This document shows positions 18,421 through 36,035 of a stretch of DNA of 36,550 nt, piece after piece. Numbering within the stretch: position 1 is the stretch's first letter; each line of letters starts with the position of its first letter. Below the pieces are notes generated by a model, which worked only from the letters and a program-made list of their open reading frames with translations, did no database searches and was not told the DNA's origin. The DNA comes from an uncultured Alphaproteobacteria bacterium (lineage in GTDB: Bacteria > Pseudomonadota > Alphaproteobacteria > Bin65), in the NCBI GenBank assembly GCA_947259335.1, contig CAMYMQ010000025.1:1-36550 (forward strand), written 5' to 3'. The position numbers and the translations under genes are program-made.

Positions 18421-18894
18421 TCAGCCTCGGATATGGAGGACGCACAGAAGGGTGAACAGCCGGCGCGACGTATCGAAATCGATGTCGATCTTTTCGGCCA
18501 GGCTTGCGCGCAGCAGTTCGGAACCTTCGTTGTGGAGACCGCGCCGGCCCATGTCGATCGCCTCGATCTGGCGCGGACTGGCTGTCTTGATGGCGGTGAA
18601 ATAGCTCTCGCAGACGTGGAAATAGTCCTTCACGATCCGGCGAAACGGCTGGAGCGACAGCGGCACCCGCGACAGTTCCGCGTCGTCTCGATCGCGAATG
18701 TCGAAGATCAGCCGGTTTTCTTCGAGGCCCAGGCGCAGGACATAGGGACCCGGATGGTCGACCTGAGGCGCGAAATGATTGTCCTCGAGCAGGTCAAAGA
18801 TGGCGACCGCCCGCTCGTGCTCGATGTCCTTGTTGCGACGGACGACGGTCCGCTCATCGAGTTGGATATCGACTATGCGGGGATCCTGGGCCAC
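18421..18894 (-). CDS. UPF0262 family protein
   Basis: A 157-residue protein of the alphaproteobacterial UPF0262 family, recognised from DIQLDER near the N-terminus, the segment [16 protein letters not shown], and the C-terminal [13 protein letters not shown]. No function is established. The open frame runs much further upstream, but that part overlaps hisD. The GTG at 18894, 5 bases after the hisD stop, gives the family's usual start and length. Position between hisD and the phosphatase is conserved. Confidence 0.85.
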
Positions 18895-18899
18895 GCGCT

Positions 18900-20231
18900 T
18901 CAGCGGCGGCGGCGGGCCGTGTCGGCGGCGTCCGCCCCCTCCCCGTCGAGACGGATCGATATCGACAGGGCGTGGGCGTCGAGGCCCTCCGCCCTCGCGA
19001 GTTCGACGGCGGCCGGACCGATGCGGCCGAGACCGCCCGCGTCGCAGGCGATGATCGAGGTCCGCTTGAGAAAGTCCTGCACGCCGAGCCCCGACGAGAA
19101 GCGGGCCGTCCTGGATGTCGGCAGGACGTGGTTGGGACCGGCGACATAGTCGCCGACCGCCTCGGGCGTGAACCGACCGAGAAAGATCGCGCCGGCGTGC
19201 CGGATTCGGGCCGCCATCGCTTCCGGCGCCTCCACGGCAAGCTCGAGATGCTCGGGCGCGAGCCTGTCGACGAGGGAAGGCGCGTCGTCGAGGTCGTCGA
19301 CGACGATAATCGCGCCATGGTCGGCCCAGCTCCGCGCCGCGATCTCGGTGCGCGCCAGCCGCTGCAGATGGACGGCGACGGCGCGCTCGACCGCTTCCGC
19401 GAACTCGGCGCTGTCGGTGATCAGGATCGCCTGGGCGACCTCGTCGTGTTCCGCCTGGGACAGGAGATCGGCGGCGATCCACTTCGGGTCGTTGAGGGCG
19501 TCGGCGACGATCAGGATTTCCGAGGGGCCGGCGATGAGATCGATGCCGACCCGGCCGAAGACCTGCTTCTTCGCGGAGGCGACATAGGCGTTGCCCGGAC
19601 CGACGATCTTGTCGACCGCGCCGATGGTCTCCGTCCCGAAGGCGAGCGCGGCGACAGCCTGGGCACCGCCGACCCGATAGACCTCGTCCACGCCCGCGAT
19701 ATGTGCGGCGGCCAGCACCAGTTCGTTGATCTCGCCGTCAGGGGTGGGCACGGTCATCGCGATCCGCCCGACGCCCGCGACTTTCGCCGGCACCGTGTTC
19801 ATCAGGACGGAACTGGGATAGGCCGCCTTGCCCCCCGGGACATAGACCCCGGCGGCGTCCACCGGCGTCCAGCGGGCGCCCAGCCGGACGCCCTCGGCAT
19901 CGGTGTAGTCGAGATCCTCGGGCAACAGCCGCCTGTGATAGTCGGCGATGCGCGCCGCCGCCTTTTCGAGCGCCGCGATCTGGCTGGGCGGACAGCGGCC
20001 GACGGCCTCGTGCAAGCGGTCCGGGCCGATGTGCAGTTCGTCCGCGGTCAGTGTCAGCCGGTCGAAGCGTTCGGTATAATCGAGCAGCGCCGCATCGCCG
20101 CGTCGGCGAACGTCCCCGATGATGTCGGCGACGACGGTATCGACGCTGTCGGCGGTCTCCTGCCGGTCGTCGAGCAGCGCGGCGAAGTCGGCCTCGAAAC
20201 CGGAATCGCCGGTCCGGAACCTACGCGGCAT
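18900..20231 (-). CDS. hisD: Histidinol dehydrogenase
   Basis: A 443-residue zinc enzyme for the last two steps of histidine synthesis (histidinol to histidine, NAD-linked). Visible blocks are [43 protein letters not shown] and the catalytic APEHLEL with its Glu-His pair. Length is normal. Its start overlaps the end of hisG by 11 bases, so the two are translationally coupled. The last residues are a run of Arg. Confidence 0.96.
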
Positions 20232-27053: not shown

Positions 27054-27515
27054 TCAGTCGGGCACGGCCCGGCGCACGTTCGCCGCCATCCGCTGCAGCA
27101 ACGCCATCAGCTGATCCGTTTCTTCCCGGCTGAAGCCGTCCAGGGACTCGCCGGTGACGCGCAGGACCACGGGGAGCACGTCATCGAACTTGCGGTGACC
27201 TTCCGGGGTCAGCGAGAGCAGGATATTGCGCCGATCGCGCGGCGCGGGACTTCGGGTCACGAAGCCCTGACGCTCCAGTTCGATGACCGCCCGGCTGAGG
27301 TTCGATCGGTCCGTCGCTGTCGCGTCCGCCAGCTGCGCGATGTTGCAGCCGTCATGCTCCCGCAGGGCGCCCAGGATACGCCAGCCGACCGGCCCGATAC
27401 CGAACCGTTCCAGCTTGCGTTTGAGGTTGACGAAGTTGCGCTCTGCGATCGCGCGGACGAGATAGGTGGGCGTCGCGCCGAGGCGGAACGCGGTTTGTTC
27501 GTGACTGCCGTCCAT
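27054..27515 (-). CDS. MarR family transcriptional regulator
   Basis: A winged-helix regulator of 153 residues from ATG 27515, or 168 from ATG 27560. The recognition helix region reads IAQLADATATDRSNLSRAVIELERQG, and the wing reads RDRRNILLSLTPEG, both typical MarR. It is divergent from the metallo-hydrolase gene, and the space between holds a perfect 12-bp palindrome. It therefore probably represses itself and that gene until a small acid or phenolic ligand binds. The shorter start is preferred because the longer one leaves little room for a promoter beside the operator. Confidence 0.88.
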   Translation of the reverse strand: MDGSHEQTAFRLGATPTYLVRAIAERNFVNLKRKLERFGIGPVGWRILGALREHDGCNIAQLADATATDRSNLSRAVIELERQGFVTRSPAPRDRRNILLSLTPEGHRKFDDVLPVVLRVTGESLDGFSREETDQLMALLQRMAANVRRAVPD

Positions 27516-27581
27516 CTGACCGATCCGTTTCGAGGCGACCGTTGACCCGAAAAATAGCATGCCATATCATGCGCACAATAT

Positions 27582-27593
27582 AGGTAATTACCT
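27582..27593. promoter_or_regulatory. MarR operator candidate AGGTAATTACCT
   Basis: A perfect 12-bp palindrome in an AT-rich divergent intergenic region, 23-34 bases before the metallo-hydrolase ATG and 22 bases outside the longer MarR frame. Size and position fit a MarR dimer site blocking both promoters. Confidence 0.6.
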
Positions 27594-27615
27594 GTAATTT
27601 GATGGAGAGACGACG

Positions 27616-28509
27616 ATGCGGGTCATGTTGCTGGGGACGGGGGCCGCGCTGGTCGATCCCGACCGGAACCATTCCTCGATCCTGCTCACGGTCCGGGGCG
27701 TGAACTACCTGTTCGACTGCGGGCACAACGCGACCCGCCAGATGGTGACCTACAGCGTCGATCCGGTGTCCGTGCGGGCGATGTTCCTGTCGCACCTGCA
27801 CTTCGACCACATCGCCGATTTCGCCTACTACATGATCTCGACCTGGATGATGGGCCGCGAGGAGCCCCCGGTCATCGTGGGCCCTCCGGAGACCCAGCAT
27901 TTCGTGACAAGCCAGCTGGCCGAAGGTGCCTTCGCCAAGGATATCGAGGCGCGCGCCCAGTACCCCCAGCGGCAGGCCAACTTCGACTATCTGAAGCCGC
28001 CCGTTCTCGAATGCACGCCGGGGCTCGTCTACGAGGACGACCTCGTCAAGGTCACCGCCTGCTACGTCGAGCACATTCCGCGCGAGATATCTCCCTGCTT
28101 CGGGCTGCGCATGGACACGGTCGACGGCAAGTCGGTCGCCTTCAGCGGCGACACCGCGCCGTGCGACGCCATGATCGAGCTGGCGCGCGACGTCGACCTG
28201 CTGATCCACGAATGCACCTTTCCGCAGAAGGCGATCGATTTCCGGAGCAAGGTCGGCATCGGCACCTGGGCCCACACCAGTCCGAGCGAGTTCGGCCGCA
28301 TCGCCACGGAGTCGCGGGCGAAGCAGGCCGTCGCCACCCATTTCGGCCACTTCGAGACGACCAACACGATCCTGCGCAAGCATATGGCCAAACACATGCC
28401 GATCGAGCTGGTTGGGCCGGAGTTCATGGACGATGTCGTCACGGACATCCGCAGCAAATACTCGGGCCCGCTTCACATCGCCCGGGACGGAATGACCATC
28501 CACCTCTAG
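27616..28509 (+). CDS. MBL-fold metallo-hydrolase (RNase Z / arylsulfatase-like)
   Basis: A 297-residue metallo-beta-lactamase-fold hydrolase. The metal motif is SHLHFDH (H60, H62, D64, H65). A later His in CYVEHIP, FSGDTAPCD and THFGHFE supply the other ligands. Overall it resembles the RNase Z / arylsulfatase (AtsA) branch, but divergence from a MarR gene argues for a metabolic ester or lactone substrate rather than tRNA. GGAGAG lies 7 bases before the ATG. No signal peptide, so cytoplasmic. Confidence 0.87.
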   Translation: MRVMLLGTGAALVDPDRNHSSILLTVRGVNYLFDCGHNATRQMVTYSVDPVSVRAMFLSHLHFDHIADFAYYMISTWMMGREEPPVIVGPPETQHFVTSQLAEGAFAKDIEARAQYPQRQANFDYLKPPVLECTPGLVYEDDLVKVTACYVEHIPREISPCFGLRMDTVDGKSVAFSGDTAPCDAMIELARDVDLLIHECTFPQKAIDFRSKVGIGTWAHTSPSEFGRIATESRAKQAVATHFGHFETTNTILRKHMAKHMPIELVGPEFMDDVVTDIRSKYSGPLHIARDGMTIHL

Positions 28510-28604: not shown

Positions 28605-29549
28605 ATGAAACATGCCATCATCGCAGCACTCGGCGCCGCGCTCGTTTCGGGACCGGCGATCGCCCAGACCTACAGCATCGGCACCAATCCCCAGGGCTCG
28701 TCGGCCTATCCGACCGGCGCCGCAGTGGCCAGGGTCGCCCGGGACAAGCTGGACCTGCGCGCCCGCGTCGTTCCCCAGGGCGGTCCGGTCGTAACCCTGC
28801 CGCTGGTCAGCCAGGGCAAGCTCGATTCCTCGATCGCGGTCAGCGTCGTCGCGGCCTTCGCCTATCAGGGCCGCGCCATGTTCAAGGGGCGGGCGCAGAA
28901 GAACATCCGCGTCGTCGCGGTGTTGCGGACCCTCCGGCTGGGCGTGTTCACCCAGCAGGATTCGAAGATCAAGACGATGGCCGACATCAAGGGCGCGCGC
29001 GTCTCGTCGGGCTTCGGCAAGCAGCGGATCCAGCAGTTGTTCTGGCGGGCGATGCTGGCGATGCCCGGCCTCACCTACAAGGACGTCCGGAGCGTACCGG
29101 CGCCCAACGGCGTGCGCGGCGTCGACGACTTCATGTCCGGCAAGGTCGACGTGGCCATGTTTTCGATCACCTCGGGCAAGGTGCGGCAGACATTTTCCTC
29201 GGTCAAGTCGCGCTACGTCTCGCTCCCGGACGATCCAGCGTCGGTCAAGCGCATGCAGGCGGTTGCGCCCGGCACAATCGTCGAGACCATAGACCCCTCG
29301 CCCGCATTCGCCGGCGTCACGGGTCCGACCAAGATCATGGCCGCGCCCTTCATCGTCACCGCGGGCGCCCACGTCTCGGACGACATGGTCTACAAGCTCA
29401 CCAAGGCGATCGCCGAAAGCAAAGGGCTGATGGTTTCGGTTTTCAAGGGCATGTCCGGCTTCAATCCGAAGCGGATGTATATCGACATCGGCGTGCCCTA
29501 TCACCCGGGCGCCCTGAAATACTACCGGGAAACCGGCCAGGCGAAGTAG
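28605..29549 (+). CDS. TAXI-family TRAP transporter solute-binding protein
   Basis: A 314-residue periplasmic receptor. A signal peptide ends at AIA (residue 20), and the mature protein begins QTYSIGTNPQGSSAYPTG, typical of the TAXI type that works with fused 4TM/12TM permeases. The matching fused permease lies 2.9 kb downstream at 32442, separated by the GntR gene, UbiD and an IS remnant. The ligand is probably a carboxylate but cannot be read. GGGAGG lies 7 bases before the ATG. Confidence 0.88.
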   Translation: MKHAIIAALGAALVSGPAIAQTYSIGTNPQGSSAYPTGAAVARVARDKLDLRARVVPQGGPVVTLPLVSQGKLDSSIAVSVVAAFAYQGRAMFKGRAQKNIRVVAVLRTLRLGVFTQQDSKIKTMADIKGARVSSGFGKQRIQQLFWRAMLAMPGLTYKDVRSVPAPNGVRGVDDFMSGKVDVAMFSITSGKVRQTFSSVKSRYVSLPDDPASVKRMQAVAPGTIVETIDPSPAFAGVTGPTKIMAAPFIVTAGAHVSDDMVYKLTKAIAESKGLMVSVFKGMSGFNPKRMYIDIGVPYHPGALKYYRETGQAK

Positions 29550-29572
29550 CGCCGCGGCAATCCGGCCGACCG

Positions 29573-30304
29573 CTACAGGTCGAAGCCGGCGCGGACGCTG
29601 ACACCGGGAGCGAGGAGCTGGGCGATCGAAACCGTCCGGCCCTCGGCCCGGCTCACCGCCCAGACAGAGAGCAGCGGCGTGCCCAGCGGCACGCGGAGCG
29701 TGATGATCATGTGCGGCTCGGCGAGGATCGATTCGGCCCAGCCGAAAGCCGGCGTCACCGTCTTGCCCAGGCGCTGGCCGAGCGCCGCATCGAAATTCCG
29801 TTCCTCTCGGACACGCGCGTCCACGAGATCGTCGAAATCGGGCAGATAGAAGCGCTTGACCGCCACCCGCCAGTCGCGCTTCGCCCGATCGAGGACCTTG
29901 ATGAAATAAGGAGCCTCCTCGTCGGGCTGAAGGCCCATCTCTTCGGTCGCGACGAGCGGCGGCCGTGCCCAGGCATGGCGGAGCACCTCGCCCGAACCGC
30001 ACATCCATCCCGTCACCAGATCCCGGACGTCGACCAGATCGCGCTTGAAATCGACGCGGCTCATGTCGGGCATGGCCCGGAGATAGGTCCCCCTGCCGGG
30101 GCTGCGGTCGAGCAGCCCTTCGTCGCTCAACTCCTTCAAGGCGAGACGGACGGTGACGCGGCTCACCCCGAAGTGCCGGCACAGAACGGCTTCGGTCGGA
30201 AGCTGGTCGCCGACCCGCAACTCGCCGTTGGCGATCTGGGACAGAAGGATGGCGCGCACCTGCTGGTGCAGAGGAAGGCCAAGGTTCGAGTCTAGAACGG
30301 TCAT
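29573..30304 (-). CDS. GntR family regulator, HutC subfamily
   Basis: A 243-residue regulator. The N-terminal winged helix reads GDQLPTEAVLCRHFGVSRVT and LALKELSDEGLLDRSPGRGTYL, and the C-terminal half (from about residue 90) has the UTRA-type ligand domain (ILAEPHMIITLRVPLGTPLLSVWAV). It is divergent from the UbiD gene and convergent with the TAXI receptor gene. Two inverted repeats lie in the 180-base space before UbiD, so it probably controls UbiD and itself in response to an organic acid. Confidence 0.88.
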   Translation of the reverse strand: MTVLDSNLGLPLHQQVRAILLSQIANGELRVGDQLPTEAVLCRHFGVSRVTVRLALKELSDEGLLDRSPGRGTYLRAMPDMSRVDFKRDLVDVRDLVTGWMCGSGEVLRHAWARPPLVATEEMGLQPDEEAPYFIKVLDRAKRDWRVAVKRFYLPDFDDLVDARVREERNFDAALGQRLGKTVTPAFGWAESILAEPHMIITLRVPLGTPLLSVWAVSRAEGRTVSIAQLLAPGVSVRAGFDL

Positions 30305-30324
30305 GTCACCCTGGGCTCTTGTTC

Positions 30325-30348
30325 ATTTGTTACATGTACGATACAAAT
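30325..30348 (-). promoter_or_regulatory. Inverted repeat at the GntR promoter
   Basis: ATTTGT (30325-30330) and ACAAAT (30343-30348) form 6-bp arms around 12 bases, and an inner TACATGTA is itself palindromic. It lies 20-45 bases before the regulator's ATG in the AT-rich promoter zone, where a HutC-type protein would autoregulate. Confidence 0.45.
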
Positions 30349-30391
30349 TTTTTCACTTGAGCGAGATACCGTTTTTGCCAACCGGCCGAAC

Positions 30392-30418
30392 CGGCGCACC
30401 ATACAGTATGGTGCGCCG
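30392..30418. promoter_or_regulatory. 27-bp near-perfect palindrome before UbiD
   Basis: Two perfect 13-base arms (CGGCGCACCATAC and its complement) flank a single central A, 67-93 bases upstream of the UbiD ATG and about 90 bases from the GntR gene start. The symmetry and divergent position suggest an operator. As RNA it could also fold into a stable hairpin, but no T run follows. Confidence 0.6.
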
Positions 30419-30484
30419 TTTCCTAGACGCAGCAGAACAGTGCCGCGCCGGATCGACCCGTCCCCGGCACCCGAGGAGCAGACC

Positions 30485-31846
30485 ATGAACGCCCCGCCCC
30501 CTTCGACACTGCGTCCGCACGAAAGCTTCAGGAGCCTGCTGGCACACCTGGAGGCGACCGGGGAACTCAAGCGCGCGCGCCGCGCGGTCGATCCGAAGCA
30601 CGAGCTGATCACCGTTACGCTGAAAAATCAGAAGACGCTGAAAAAGGGTTCGCTCTTTCCGGACGTGACCGGAAGCCCCGCTCCGGTCGCGACCAACGTC
30701 TTGTCGAACCGCGACCGTCTGGCCACGGCTCTCGGCTTCGCGCCAACCGACATGATTCGACAGCTGGAAATCCTGGAGGCCCAGCCCGTCGCCCCGGTCG
30801 AGGTGAGCGAGGCCCCCGTGCAGGAAATCGTCCTGACCGACGGGGTCGATATCGCCCGGGACATCCCGCAGATCATCCACTGCGAAGGCGACGCCGGGCC
30901 CTACATCACCGCAGGCGTCTGCATCGCCCGCCACCCCCGGGACGGCACCTATAACGCCTCTTGGAACCGGGTCCAGATCGTCGGCGGCGACCATGCCCGT
31001 ATCCGCATGATGGCTCCCCAACACCTGGGGCAATATCAGGAGATGGCGGAAGCCGAGGATGCCCCCCTGCCCGTCGCCATGGTCATCGGCGCGCCGCCGG
31101 CGCTGATGCTGAGCGCCGCCTCCAAGATTCCGCTGGAAACGGACGAGCTCGCGGTCGCGGGCGCCTGGCAGCGGTCTCCGCTGCGGGTCACGCCCGCCGT
31201 TACCGTACCGCTGATGGTGCCGGCCGACGCAGAATTCGTGATCGAGGGCTTCGTCGTGCCGCATGCCCGGGAGGTCGAAGGCCCCTACGGTGAATTCACC
31301 GACACCTACGTCGAGCCGGCGAAGAACCACGTGCTTCGCGTCACCGCGATCACCCGCCGCAAGGATGCGGTCTTCCACACGATGCTGGCGGGCGCCGCGG
31401 AAGACACAACCCTGCTGGGCGTCCCGCTTCAGGTCGAAGTGCTCAAGCGCGTGCGGAGCTTCGCCGACATCGTCGACATCGGCACGCCGGGCCACCTGTT
31501 CGGCTGCGTGGTCAGCATCAACAAGAAAAGCGACGAGCAGGCCCGTGCCGTGCTGATGGCCGCGCTGGCCGCCCACAACTGGATGAAGGTCTGCGTCGTC
31601 GTCGATCATGACATCGACCCGCACGACGCCGAGGAAGTTCTCTGGGCGATCCACACCCGCTGCCGTCCCGACACCGGCCTCTATCATATCCCGCGCCTCG
31701 GCAGTTTCCCGCGCGCCGACGTGCGCCCGGTCCACAAGGGCAAGATGGCGTTCGACGCCACCGTTCCGATGGACCTGCGGGAGGTATTCGCGCGCCGGGA
31801 GTTCCCGGGTATCGAGGATATCGATCTCGACGCCTGGTTCGACTGA
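30485..31846 (+). CDS. UbiD family prenylated-FMN-dependent decarboxylase
   Basis: A 453-residue UbiD/Fdc-type enzyme. The active-site set can be followed by comparison with Aspergillus Fdc1: N157 (metal), R162, H180, E254, and E265/E270 in REVEGPYGEF, giving the Arg-Glu-Glu triad. It decarboxylates (or carboxylates) an unsaturated or aromatic acid. It needs prFMN from a UbiX-type enzyme, not seen in this window. The GntR/HutC gene upstream and TRAP genes around it argue for a catabolic rather than ubiquinone role. GGAG lies 8 bases before ATG 30485, setting the start. Confidence 0.9.
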   Translation: MNAPPPSTLRPHESFRSLLAHLEATGELKRARRAVDPKHELITVTLKNQKTLKKGSLFPDVTGSPAPVATNVLSNRDRLATALGFAPTDMIRQLEILEAQPVAPVEVSEAPVQEIVLTDGVDIARDIPQIIHCEGDAGPYITAGVCIARHPRDGTYNASWNRVQIVGGDHARIRMMAPQHLGQYQEMAEAEDAPLPVAMVIGAPPALMLSAASKIPLETDELAVAGAWQRSPLRVTPAVTVPLMVPADAEFVIEGFVVPHAREVEGPYGEFTDTYVEPAKNHVLRVTAITRRKDAVFHTMLAGAAEDTTLLGVPLQVEVLKRVRSFADIVDIGTPGHLFGCVVSINKKSDEQARAVLMAALAAHNWMKVCVVVDHDIDPHDAEEVLWAIHTRCRPDTGLYHIPRLGSFPRADVRPVHKGKMAFDATVPMDLREVFARREFPGIEDIDLDAWFD

Positions 31847-31891
31847 GCGGCCCATAGCTGCGTCCGCGCAGGAATGCCAATGCTCTATGTT

Positions 31892-31948
31892 GACCAGACC
31901 CCACTGACTGATCCGGTTTGATTGTCAGTGGCTTGATGGTCTCTGGTC
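31892..31948. repeat. Inverted repeat at the end of the IS remnant
   Basis: GACCAGA (31892-31898) and CCACTGAC (31901-31908) pair with GTCAGTGG (31924-31931) and TCTGGTC (31942-31948): an 8-bp inner and a 7-bp outer stem with unequal spacers. It overlaps the stop codon of the transposase remnant and probably includes the terminal end of the former insertion sequence, which may start at TGACCAGACC (31891). Confidence 0.45.
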
Positions 31949-32170
31949 TGACGGGACGATAGCCTCCGGTATCGGGGGCCGGTATCCGAACGCGCCATGC
32001 GGCCGGACGGTTTTGAAGTGCCGTCGCCATTGCTCGATCACGGTCTGAGCCTGCTTCAGAATTTAGAAGATCTCGCCGTTGCGCAGTTCGTCCCTGAAGC
32101 GGGCGTTGAAGCTCTCGGATCGTCCGTCTTCCCTGGGATATCCGGGTTCGATGCAGGCGGTCTGGGCGCC
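31925..32170 (-). pseudogene. IS3-family transposase remnant (C-terminal rve part)
   Basis: On the minus strand one frame reads TACIEPGYPREDG, SESFNARFRDELRNGEIF, then an in-frame TAA (32063-32065), then ILKQAQTVIEQWRRHFKTV and RPHGAFGYRPP, ending at TGA 31925-31927. These are the C-terminal blocks of an IS3-type OrfB integrase domain, including the catalytic-region Glu (RSESFN stands for the usual C-E-S-F-N). The DDE parts upstream are missing and the frame is broken, so it is dead. It sits in the 595-base gap between UbiD and the TRAP permease; the rest (32171-32390) shows no gene. Confidence 0.8.
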
Positions 32171-32390
32171 ACCGGCCAGCGCTGCGGGATGGGAAGCCCG
32201 TGTTGTCCCGTTTGCCGGGAGAGCGGTGACTGACAAGTCGATTCCGTCTCGCCACTATGCGAGTCGGATTACTCGATAGCATCGTGATGCGTCCGGTTTC
32301 TTCCTTCCGGAGGGGCCCCGCTTCTGCCGACGGTTTCGTGCTATCCTGCGCTTGTGGCCGGATCGCACGTGAGATGCCTTCAAGTATCAA

Positions 32391-32407
32391 CCGCCTCCTA
32401 AAGGCGG
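32391..32407 (+). promoter_or_regulatory. Small hairpin in the TRAP permease leader
   Basis: CCGCCT and AGGCGG form a 6-bp stem with a 5-base loop just before the first possible starts of the permease gene (GTG 32409, ATG 32421). It would hide the GGCGGAG ribosome-site-like sequence of those starts, while leaving GGGGAG before GTG 32442 free. Confidence 0.25.
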
Positions 32408-32441
32408 AGTGTGGCTCTACATGCAACAGGGGAGAGCAGGC

Positions 32442-34382
32442 GTGAGCGAAGTGAGCGTCGACGGCAACGCCGAGCAGGCCAGCAAGGAACCTGAAGGGCT
32501 GACCACACGCATCGGCATGGTGCTGTGCGCGATCCTGACGATCGGTTCCCTGTTGTGGGCAGCCGACCTGTATCGCGAGGTCGGCCTCAACTTCATGAAC
32601 GAACAGTTTTACGCCGGTATGCTCGCGATCGGCCTGCCGGCGCTCTATCTGACCGTGGCCTCGAACAAGACAGGTCCGCGGCGCCTGATCTGGCTCGATA
32701 TCATTGCCTCGGTCGTGCTGGCGGCGACCTCGCTCTACGTCATGGTCGTCTACCCGCAAATCCTCGACAATTTTGCCGACAACCCGCGGGACGCGGTCGT
32801 CGCGGCCGCGATCATTCTCGTCGGCATCGCCGAAGGCCTGCGCCGGACCGCCGGCAACGTCCTGTTCTTCTTCCTGCTGTTCTTCCTCGCCTTCGCTCTC
32901 GTCGGCCATTTGATCCCCGGCAAGCTCCAGGGGCAGAACGTCCCGCTCGACCGGCTGGCGATCTATGTCACGCTGGATTCGAACGGCATGTTCGGTCTGC
33001 CGATGAAGGTTTCGACGACCATCGTCATCGCCTTCGTCTTTTTCGGGTTCCTGCTCGAGCCCGCCGGAGGCGGCCGCTTCTTCACCGATATCTCGACCGC
33101 CCTGATGGGCCGCTTCCGCGGCGGCTCCTCCAAGATCGCAATCGTGGCCTCCAGCCTGTTCGGGTCGATCTCGGGCAGCGCCGTGTCGAACGTCGTCTCG
33201 ACCGGGGTCATCACCATCCCCCTGATGCGCAGGAGCGGCTACGACGTCTCCTCGGCCGCCGCCATCGAGGCCGTGGCGTCGACCGGCGGCCAGCTGATGC
33301 CGCCGATGATGGGCGTCGCGGCCTTCCTGATGGCCGAGCTGTTGAGCATCGACTATGGAGAGGTCGTCCTCGCCGCGCTGATCCCGGCGATCCTCTACTA
33401 TGCCGCCCTGTTTATTCAGGTCGACCTTCAAGCTGCGCGCGACGGCATCAAGTCGATCGAGCGATCCCTGATCCCCCGGATCTGGCCGGTCTTCAAGAGG
33501 GGCGGATTGTTCATCATCCCCTTCGCGGTGATCGTGGTCTGTCTGTTCCGCTGGAACCTGCAGCCAGAAACCGCAGCGCTCTATGCCGCCATCTCGCTGC
33601 TGCCGATCGGCTTCCTGGTCGGCTACAAGGGCGACCGGCTCAACCTCTCCGAATTCTTCAGCGTGTTCGGCCGCACCGGCCGGGCATCGCTTGAAATCCT
33701 GATGATCGGCGGCGCCGCCGGCGCCATCATCGGCGTGCTGAACATCACCGGCCTCGGCTTCGCGCTGACCCTGGAACTGGTCGGCTTTGCCGGCGGCGTG
33801 CTGTTCGTGCTGCTGATCCTATCGGCGATCGTCTGCATCATCCTGGGCATGGGCATGCCCACGCTGGGCGTCTACATCCTGCTCGCCACCCTGGTGGCAC
33901 CGGCGATCATCGAGCTCGGCGTGCCGGTCCTGGCCGCCCACCTGTTCGTCCTCTACTACGGCATGATGTCGATGATCACGCCGCCGGTCGCGATTGCCGC
34001 CTTCGCCGCGGCCAGCCTCGCCGGCGCGCCGGCGATGCGCACCGGCTGGAACGCCATGAAATTCGGCTGGTCGGCCTACATCATCCCGTTCCTGTTCGTC
34101 TATTCGCCCACGCTGATCATGCGCGGCGACGTCTGGCACATAACCCTGACCTGCGTTACCGCCCTCGCCGGTGTCTGGATGATTTCGGTCGCCGTGATGG
34201 GCTTCATGGTCCGGCCGGTAACCATGCCGATGCGGATCGCTTACGCCGTCGCGGGGCTGGCCCTGCTGCTGCCCATCGACGCTACTCCGGTCGCGATCTG
34301 GGTCAACATGGGTGGACTGCTCGGAATGGCCGTACTCCTGACGTCGGAATTCATGCTAAATCGGCGCCTTGCGACGAACTGA
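32442..34382 (+). CDS. TRAP transporter fused permease (4TM/12TM, DctQM)
   Basis: A protein of about 646 residues joining a small 4TM DctQ-like part (first about 130 residues) to a large DctM part with about 12 membrane segments. DctM hallmarks are GSSKIAIVASSLFGSISGSAVSNV, ASTGGQLMPPMMG, LGMGMPTLGVYILLATL and YYGMMSMITPPVA. It is sodium- or proton-driven and works with a TAXI receptor, most likely the one at 28605. The GTG 32442 start has GGGGAG 7 bases upstream; ATG 32421 is an alternative. A sulfatase gene follows after 54 bases on the same strand. Confidence 0.88.
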   Translation: MSEVSVDGNAEQASKEPEGLTTRIGMVLCAILTIGSLLWAADLYREVGLNFMNEQFYAGMLAIGLPALYLTVASNKTGPRRLIWLDIIASVVLAATSLYVMVVYPQILDNFADNPRDAVVAAAIILVGIAEGLRRTAGNVLFFFLLFFLAFALVGHLIPGKLQGQNVPLDRLAIYVTLDSNGMFGLPMKVSTTIVIAFVFFGFLLEPAGGGRFFTDISTALMGRFRGGSSKIAIVASSLFGSISGSAVSNVVSTGVITIPLMRRSGYDVSSAAAIEAVASTGGQLMPPMMGVAAFLMAELLSIDYGEVVLAALIPAILYYAALFIQVDLQAARDGIKSIERSLIPRIWPVFKRGGLFIIPFAVIVVCLFRWNLQPETAALYAAISLLPIGFLVGYKGDRLNLSEFFSVFGRTGRASLEILMIGGAAGAIIGVLNITGLGFALTLELVGFAGGVLFVLLILSAIVCIILGMGMPTLGVYILLATLVAPAIIELGVPVLAAHLFVLYYGMMSMITPPVAIAAFAAASLAGAPAMRTGWNAMKFGWSAYIIPFLFVYSPTLIMRGDVWHITLTCVTALAGVWMISVAVMGFMVRPVTMPMRIAYAVAGLALLLPIDATPVAIWVNMGGLLGMAVLLTSEFMLNRRLATN

Positions 34383-34436: not shown

Positions 34437-36035
34437 ATGAGCGACCAAAAGCGCCCCAACTTTCTCTTCATCATCACCGACCAGCACCGCGCCGACCATC
34501 TCGGCTGCTCGGGGCATCCGGTTTTGAAGACGCCCCATATCGACTCGATCGCCGACCGCGGCGTACGCTTCAACCGCTTCTATGTCTCGAACCCGGTCTG
34601 CATGCCCAACCGGTCGACCCTGATGACCGGCCGGATGCCCTCGCTGCACGGCGTGCGGCACAACGGCATTCCGCTGAGCCTGCAGGCCAATACCTTCGTC
34701 GACCTGATGCGGGCCGAGGGCTATCGCACCGCGCTGATGGGGAAGAGCCATCTGCAGAACATGACCGACGGCCCGACGGTCATGGAACGCCGCATTCCCG
34801 AGCGCACGGACGAGTATTCGGAGGCGCTCAAGCCCTATCCGACCGACGAGGGCGCCTACGACCAGGAACGGCCATGGTCCTGGAAGAAGAACGACTTCAC
34901 CGTGGACACGCCCTTCTACGGCTTCGAGGACGTGCGGCTGTGCACCATGCACGGTGACATGGTCGGCGGCGAATATCTCCACTGGCTGCGCGACAAGGGT
35001 GCGGACGCCGACACGCTGGTCGGCAAGAAGAACAGCCTGCCGCATGACTATATCGCGCCGCAGGCCTGGCGGACCTCGGTTCCCGAAGAGCTGTATCCGA
35101 CCCGGTATATCGAGGAACAGACGCTGAGCTGGCTCGACCAGCGCGCCGAGACGGACGAGGACGATCCCTTTTTCCTGATGGTGTCCTTCCCCGACCCGCA
35201 CCATCCCTTCACGCCGCCGGGCAAATACTGGGACATGTACGATCCGGCCGACATGCCGCTGCCTGCGAGCTTCGGCCGGATCGGCAACCGGCCGCCGCCG
35301 ACCGTCGCCTGGGCCTATGACAACCGTGTCGAGGGCAAGATGGACCGCGGCCAGGGCCAGTTCCTGTTCGTGGTCAACGAACGCGAAGTGCGCGAGGCGA
35401 TGGCGCTGACCTGCGGCATGATCTCCATGATCGACGATGCCGTCGGCAGCATCCTCGCCAAGCTCGAACAACAGGGCCAGCTGGACAATACCGTGATCGT
35501 GTTCACCGCCGACCACGGCGACTTCCTGGGCGACCACCGGCTGATGCTCAAGGGCCAGATCCACTATCAGGGCCTGATCCGCGTGCCCTTCCTGGTCGCC
35601 GATCCGGCCGCCGGCCAGAAGGGCGCGGAGACCGATGCCCTGTGCGGCACCCTCGACATCGCCCAGACCATCCTCGATCGCGCCGGCATCACGCCCTACA
35701 ACGGCATCCAGGGCCGCAGCCTGATGCCGGAGGTCGAGACGCTCGCCGACCATGGCACCGGCGACATACTGGTCGAGGACGACCAGCAACGGACCGTGCT
35801 GGGCTTCAGCGGCCCGTTCCGGGTTCACACCCTGGTCACCGACCGGTGGCGGATGTCGATCTACAACGAGGCCGAGGTCGGCGAGCTCTACGATCTCGAG
35901 AACGATCCCGACGAGATGGAAAATCTCTGGGACGACGCCGAACACCAGGACGTCAAGCTGAAGCTGCTCGACACGTTCGCCCGGCGGCGCATCAACCTCG
36001 TCGACCGCAGCCCCTTCCCGACCGCGATCGCTTGA
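34437..36035 (+). CDS. Formylglycine-dependent sulfatase-family hydrolase
   Basis: A 532-residue alkaline phosphatase-superfamily enzyme. The formylglycine motif is CMPNR (C55-R59), followed by STLMTGR. Metal ligands are probably D15 and Q16 (TDQH), then D359 and H360 (TADHGDF); K102 (GKSH), H256 and K372 complete a typical site. No signal peptide, so cytoplasmic. The Asn in CxPNR differs from the common CxPSR but meets CxPxR. Substrates may be sulfate esters or phosphonate/phosphate mono- or diesters; a formylglycine-generating enzyme must be elsewhere. It probably shares a transcript with the TRAP permease. Confidence 0.9.
   Translation: MSDQKRPNFLFIITDQHRADHLGCSGHPVLKTPHIDSIADRGVRFNRFYVSNPVCMPNRSTLMTGRMPSLHGVRHNGIPLSLQANTFVDLMRAEGYRTALMGKSHLQNMTDGPTVMERRIPERTDEYSEALKPYPTDEGAYDQERPWSWKKNDFTVDTPFYGFEDVRLCTMHGDMVGGEYLHWLRDKGADADTLVGKKNSLPHDYIAPQAWRTSVPEELYPTRYIEEQTLSWLDQRAETDEDDPFFLMVSFPDPHHPFTPPGKYWDMYDPADMPLPASFGRIGNRPPPTVAWAYDNRVEGKMDRGQGQFLFVVNEREVREAMALTCGMISMIDDAVGSILAKLEQQGQLDNTVIVFTADHGDFLGDHRLMLKGQIHYQGLIRVPFLVADPAAGQKGAETDALCGTLDIAQTILDRAGITPYNGIQGRSLMPEVETLADHGTGDILVEDDQQRTVLGFSGPFRVHTLVTDRWRMSIYNEAEVGELYDLENDPDEMENLWDDAEHQDVKLKLLDTFARRRINLVDRSPFPTAIA

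Follow-up and report, generated by a model that had tools for sequence, protein, structure and literature searches.

The window analysed here is the whole stretch of 36,550 bases and belongs to a draft genome (G000; 4.15 Mb in 458 contigs, 75.6% complete). Among the 32 genes called in it, gntR (29573-30304, minus strand) and ubiD (30485-31846, plus strand) are divergently oriented, and the 180 bases between the gntR start codon (30304-30302, minus strand) and the ubiD ATG at 30485 are a divergent promoter region. The gntR product is a GntR-family regulator of 243 amino acids with a HutC-like N-terminal helix-turn-helix. Its winged helix-turn-helix was matched by Pfam GntR (PF00392, 2.6e-18), and its best NCBIfam match was HutC, which scored 74 bits (cutoff 220) over residues 13-80 only, i.e., the helix-turn-helix. 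The effector domain was not recognized by Pfam, UTRA giving no match at E 0.001. A paralogue encoded at C437 of the same genome showed 27% identity to the window GntR, is alignable along its length, and carries UTRA (1e-18).

The ubiD gene encodes a UbiD-family decarboxylase of 453 amino acids, and its ATG is preceded by AGGAG at 30474-30478. The Pfam UbiD match (2e-57) was scored on a longer frame, 30440-31846; the UbiD N, Rift-related, and C-terminal domains (PF20695, PF01977, and PF20696) were all over cutoff, and NCBIfam TIGR00148 gave 300.2 bits against a cutoff of 244.85. The closest solved sequence was 6h6v (1.1e-74) and the next different molecule was AnInD 7p9q (6.5e-44), both matching the window UbiD over nearly its whole length. 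A passage of PMC8988006 states that AnInD clusters with HmfF, whose substrate is furan dicarboxylic acid; unlike this HmfF/AnInD group, the window UbiD sits among TAXI-type TRAP transporter genes. The neighbors are genes for a MarR-family regulator (27054-27560, Pfam), a metallo-beta-lactamase-fold protein (27616-28509, Pfam), a TAXI-type TRAP binding protein (28605-29549, NCBIfam profile), a DctM permease (32409-34382, profile match), and a sulfatase (34437-36035, Pfam). Directly after ubiD and before the DctM gene, the minus strand at 31850-32200 holds a frame, DGRSESFNARFRDELRNGEIF followed by a stop, which looks like an IS3-type transposase remnant.

Two inverted repeats had been reported in the gntR-ubiD gap by the first-pass annotation, and their coordinates and letters were found to be as given there. 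One is the ATTTGT-N12-ACAAAT dyad at 30325-30348 (ATTTGT at 30325-30330 and ACAAAT at 30343-30348). The other is a perfect palindrome of 27 bases at 30392-30418, CGGCGCACCATAC-A-GTATGGTGCGCCG, with 13-base arms around the A at 30405; when one mismatch was allowed, the arms grew to 17 bases each (30388-30422). No half-site is common to the two in the same orientation, which supports the view that two unrelated dyads lie in this one region.

Apart from the palindrome, the window contains no perfect inverted repeat whose arms reach 11 bases with a loop of up to 10, and 20 dinucleotide-resampled windows yielded no perfect repeat with arms of at least 12 bases, bearing out the claim that the 13-base arms are beyond chance. 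In 24 other stretches of G000 (369,437 bases), 21 perfect repeats with arms of at least 10 bases and a loop of up to 8 were present, of which 5 have arms of at least 12 (about 1 per 74 kb), while one resampling of this sample gave 7 repeats with arms of at least 10 bases and none over 11. A one-base formal spacer was seen in 2 of these 21 repeats, one of the two lying inside a called gene. Over 183 of 189 loci (788,808 bases, some overlapping, with the 6 palindrome-bearing loci excluded), 8 distinct repeats with arms of at least 12 bases were counted. These results indicated that the palindrome is far beyond composition-based chance, yet such repeats recur. The G000 sample has 13 further perfect repeats whose arms reach 11 bases. 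A crude gene caller put 6 of them within genes and 7 between genes, 4 of these 7 at gene ends and 2 at a distance of 36-41 bases ahead of a called start; compared with these 13, the window palindrome alone stands between divergent genes.

Copies of the palindrome were then counted at several levels. In the window, the half arm CGGCGCACCATAC had no match at 0-2 mismatches beyond the two arms themselves. The whole palindrome, at up to 3 mismatches, had no second copy in G000 and was absent from the 40 other relatives searched. A dispersed repeat, for which many copies at unrelated sites would speak, was therefore rejected. The exact core of the palindrome, ACCATACAGTATGGT, was found in 0 of 397 other genomes of the phylum and in 0 viral contigs, and with up to 1 mismatch it was found in 1 of 384 other genomes of the class (locus L120, where the crude caller finds no gene). 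With 2-3 mismatches the core matched at 5 further places in G000, versus 1 for a backward control; of these, 3 fall within called genes and the other 2 do not, and none could be linked to a regulator. A search of plasmid DNA returned one 27-base match at E 0.5 and none covering the palindrome. Thus, the palindrome is real and single-copy in the genome searched.

A promoter for ubiD can be proposed at 30319-30347 (plus strand), with TTGTTC as the -35 element, a spacer of 17 bases, and TACAAA as the -10 element at 30342-30347. Its agreement with the consensus is 7 of 12 letters, the same score being 10 of 12 at the C437 promoter and at two promoters of the related genome G003 described below, and a promoter scan with a threshold of 9 of 12 letters returned none in 30200-30600. 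A second promoter-like pair scores 8 of 12 letters: TTGCCA at 30375 combined with CATACA (spacing 19) or with CACCAT (spacing 16), both of which lie inside the palindrome, so that with this pair the palindrome would overlie a promoter.

The inner part of the ATTTGT/ACAAAT dyad, TTGT-N12-ACAA at 30327-30346, is embedded in the proposed 30319-30347 promoter. The dyad overlaps the predicted ubiD -10 element, with about 20 bases between it and the gntR start; a single site could thus govern gntR and ubiD alike, and we consider it likely to be an operator of this GntR group and to be common to the two genes. The arrangement resembles that of the GntR/HutC-subfamily repressors, such as NagR with its dre-sites, in having a HutC-like helix-turn-helix winged helix, a dyad operator, and a catabolic gene adjoining the regulator, but the window GntR differs from HutC and NagR in falling below the curated HutC cutoff and in its UTRA being unrecognized by Pfam. 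Its half-sites, TTGT and ACAA, are also 12 bases apart, whereas the account of the NagR operator in a passage of PMC4333415 places six bases between them, so that the case for GntR binding rests on genomic association.

That association was evaluated with a composite of promoter and operator, TTGnnn-NN-WTGT-N11-TACAAW, in which the right half of the dyad is the -10 element. The composite had 3 copies in G000 and 2 in G003, and its reversed control had 0 in both whole genomes; in the other 29 genomes it matched 7 times versus 4 for the control, which is about background. The first G000 copy is the gntR-ubiD promoter itself. The second belongs to the C437 locus 18448-19272 (L188): the gene of the UTRA-bearing GntR paralogue and a gene for an NMT1_3 (TAXI-like) binding protein diverge there, with the same composite promoter-operator as in the gntR-ubiD region. 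The third, at C94 8751-8779 (L186 5752-5780), lies at the predicted 5' end of a frame for an M20 peptidase, divergent from a SIS-domain gene, and is possibly a distant member of the regulon. Among TTGnnn-N17-TACAAW promoters, WTGT was in place in 3 of 4 in a G000 sample of 405,987 bases (two of these G000 loci had been chosen for having the dyad pattern) and in 2 of 2 in L112. The bare TTGT-N12-ACAA was unenriched in the same G000 sample, with 5 occurrences versus 5 for an N11 and 6 for an N14 spacing, and a looser pattern, WTTGTAT-N10-ACAAW with one mismatch, was not clearly over its control. Specificity resides only in the composite with the promoter and not in the bare dyad. A family-wide GntR operator motif was rejected, because the exact TTGT-N12-ACAA was present upstream of only 1 of 80 more distant GntR-helix-turn-helix relatives, scanned to a depth of about 300 bases.

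We compared the region with that of relatives. Good orthologues of both proteins were found in one genome only, G003, which belongs to another genus of the same family (GntR, 45% identity with 96 genomes searched; UbiD, 65% with 61 genomes searched), and both are on one contig. Under strict cutoffs, a search of 385 genomes of the class, for which 21 genomes are named and G002, G003, and G005 are not among them, matched only G000 itself for UbiD and for GntR. In G003, a Rieske oxygenase gene (Rieske and VanA_C domains) lies between gntR and ubiD, followed by genes for an SDR and a DctP protein. TTGT-N12-ACAA is present there upstream of ubiD (L112 7902) and of gntR (10003), and ATGT-N12-ACAA is present upstream of the Rieske gene, so that an ATTTGT-type site stands at three promoters of the cluster. 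The composite occurs at the G003 ubiD and Rieske promoters, both copies flanking ubiD, and at G003 gntR the dyad forms no composite. The palindrome, at up to 3 mismatches, was not found in G003, where the predicted ubiD leader is about 37 bases long and gave only short, weak stems on folding; the relatives searched yielded no hairpin-bearing homologue in which compensatory changes could be tested. The G005 contig terminates at ubiD, and no promoter region is left in G002, where the ubiD ATG follows a stop codon at a distance of 11 bases.

From the -10 element at 30342-30347, transcription of ubiD would start near 30354, giving a predicted leader of about 131 bases (30354-30484, plus strand) in which the palindrome occupies about +39 to +65. 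As RNA, the palindrome would form a stem of 12 pairs with a 3-base loop and, after one mismatch, 3 further pairs (30388-30422), about 55 bases before the ribosome-binding site. This hairpin folded at -23.2 kcal/mol (z -6.8) and the whole leader at z -3.8, and in each case 0 of 200 shuffles were as good. In an alternative pairing, the left arm matches 30445-30461 at 14 of 17 pairs, but holding the right arm unpaired made the leader fold 18.6 kcal/mol worse; therefore, no balanced switch is apparent. The G+C-rich 12-pair leader hairpin followed by UUU is like that of intrinsic terminators and leader attenuators, but it differs from them in having only three U residues and no terminator call: a scan of 30200-30600 found 0 terminator-like sites, and a standard intrinsic terminator was rejected on this negative scan and the too-weak U-run. 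Rfam returned 0 matches at the gathering score in 29000-32400, with one below-gathering hit at E 0.89, and a known structured RNA family was thus rejected as well. An open reading frame of 26 codons, 30408-30488, starts in the right palindrome arm and ends in an ATGA overlap with the start of ubiD; a ribosome-binding site was not seen for it, and it is probably a chance frame.

The reading that we prefer, at a probability of roughly 40%, is that GntR acting at one operator represses both gntR and ubiD, and that the palindrome is separate and acts, if at all, as a hairpin in the leader RNA. GntR would bind the TTGT-N12-ACAA dyad over the -10 element and spacer of the putative ubiD promoter, and an inducer would release gntR and ubiD together. 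The 27-base palindrome, transcribed into the ubiD leader, would act as a stable 12-pair hairpin ahead of the ribosome-binding site, shielding the message from decay or causing mild pausing or early termination. In this scheme we infer the start site, GntR binding, the RNA as the working form, and the effect on ubiD. An RNA hairpin in the UbiD leader had been offered in the first-pass annotation as a further possibility, and it emerged mildly favored on position, stability, and the lack of a second copy, with a weak promoter and the missing U-run on the debit side. We modestly favor the RNA form over an operator of a second regulator because the palindrome lies downstream of the predicted start and no second copy was found: an RNA hairpin needs no second copy, while an operator is usually also present at the gene of its own regulator. 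That the hairpin might provide a second, RNA-level control of ubiD atop GntR repression, answering substrate or prenylated flavin supply through conditional pausing, termination, or decay, we regard as very improbable; if true, this would make the UbiD leader a new case of riboregulation.

Several observations counted against a hairpin. The 7 of 12 promoter match, the absence of a U-run, the one-base, DNA-like center, and the lack of conservation in G003 all do so, and the promoter-like pair overlapping the palindrome (8 of 12 letters) and the slight excess of core matches (5 versus 1 in the control) would suit a DNA site. The main rival is accordingly a dedicated second dimeric regulator, for which the palindrome would be the DNA operator, serving as a roadblock past the ubiD start or, alternatively, masking a second promoter at TTGCCA with CATACA or CACCAT; this is a real possibility, though short of an even chance. 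The perfect two-fold symmetry to a one-base center, the AT-richer core, and the position in a divergent regulatory region fit it, and presumably a TetR-like odd-centered dyad would look like this, with the difference that neither a cognate regulator nor a second copy was found. The proposal that two regulators meet in this gap thus stood as possible, but it is burdened by the single copy in a genome that is 75.6% complete, where a further copy, or the gene of the regulator itself, might lie in the missing quarter. The 3 of 5 core matches inside called genes, none of them tied to a regulator, and the absence of the exact core from all 397 other phylum genomes also speak against it, as do the perfect 13-base arms, which are more than a dimer usually needs. 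The only other transcription factor recognized by Pfam among the genes of the window is the MarR-family protein, whose gene is divergent from the metallo-beta-lactamase-fold gene (27054-27616 region). The gap before it has a dyad of its own, TATAGGTAA/TTACCTGTA at 27579-27596 (8 of 9 pairs), which is a likely MarR operator, and nothing like the 27-mer; the best ungapped 27-mer similarity in that gap was matched or beaten in 225 of 302 pieces of the window. Given this different dyad and the lack of any better similarity, the MarR-family protein is not likely to bind the palindrome and is disfavored as the second regulator.

The palindrome may instead have no selected function and stem from a recent templated replication error, of the quasi-palindrome-correcting kind, in a tolerant leader. 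We hold this to be unlikely, although the single copy, the absence from G003, and the lack of detectable partner elements would all be explained, and template switching produces just such near-perfect symmetry. The 6 of 13 long repeats inside called genes mean that not all such repeats are regulatory, but the intergenic ones at gene ends or shortly before a called start occupy common hairpin sites. Very improbable is a second site for the same GntR, with autoregulation at one repeat and control of ubiD at the other, which had also been suggested: both repeats lie in one promoter region and GTAT occurs in both, but their half-sites differ and point opposite ways, and G003 has ATTTGT-type sites at three promoters and yet no palindrome. 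Two sites for one protein are thus unsupported, since the ATTTGT/ACAAAT dyad itself overlaps the predicted ubiD -10 element and the composite recurs at the G003 ubiD and Rieske promoters. An assembly or sequencing artefact is hardly credible even in an incomplete draft of which no second assembly was seen, as fold-back artefacts typically far exceed 13 bases and the flanks look like an ordinary leader that includes a ribosome-binding site.

All parts of the preferred reading, GntR at a shared operator and a hairpin in the ubiD leader, are of a known kind and amount to ordinary bacterial gene control, with one single-copy hairpin left unexplained. No papers pairing GntR with UbiD were found in the open PubMed Central literature, and none of the open PubMed Central matches listed for the palindrome letters concerned the palindrome. 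The dyad offers a testable operator for an uncharacterized GntR beside genes for a UbiD decarboxylase and a TRAP-type transporter, and the regulon can be predicted from the composite promoter that the two genera share; should the hairpin prove regulatory, UbiD control would gain a further layer at the RNA level. A related ubiD (54%) lies on a Pseudohalocynthiibacter plasmid, divergent from an IclR gene, and the stretch read there contains no such palindrome. In this region, L190 5872-5998, ACCAACATCGTTGGT stands between that ubiD and the IclR regulator, in the same place as the repeats of the window but next to a regulator of another family.
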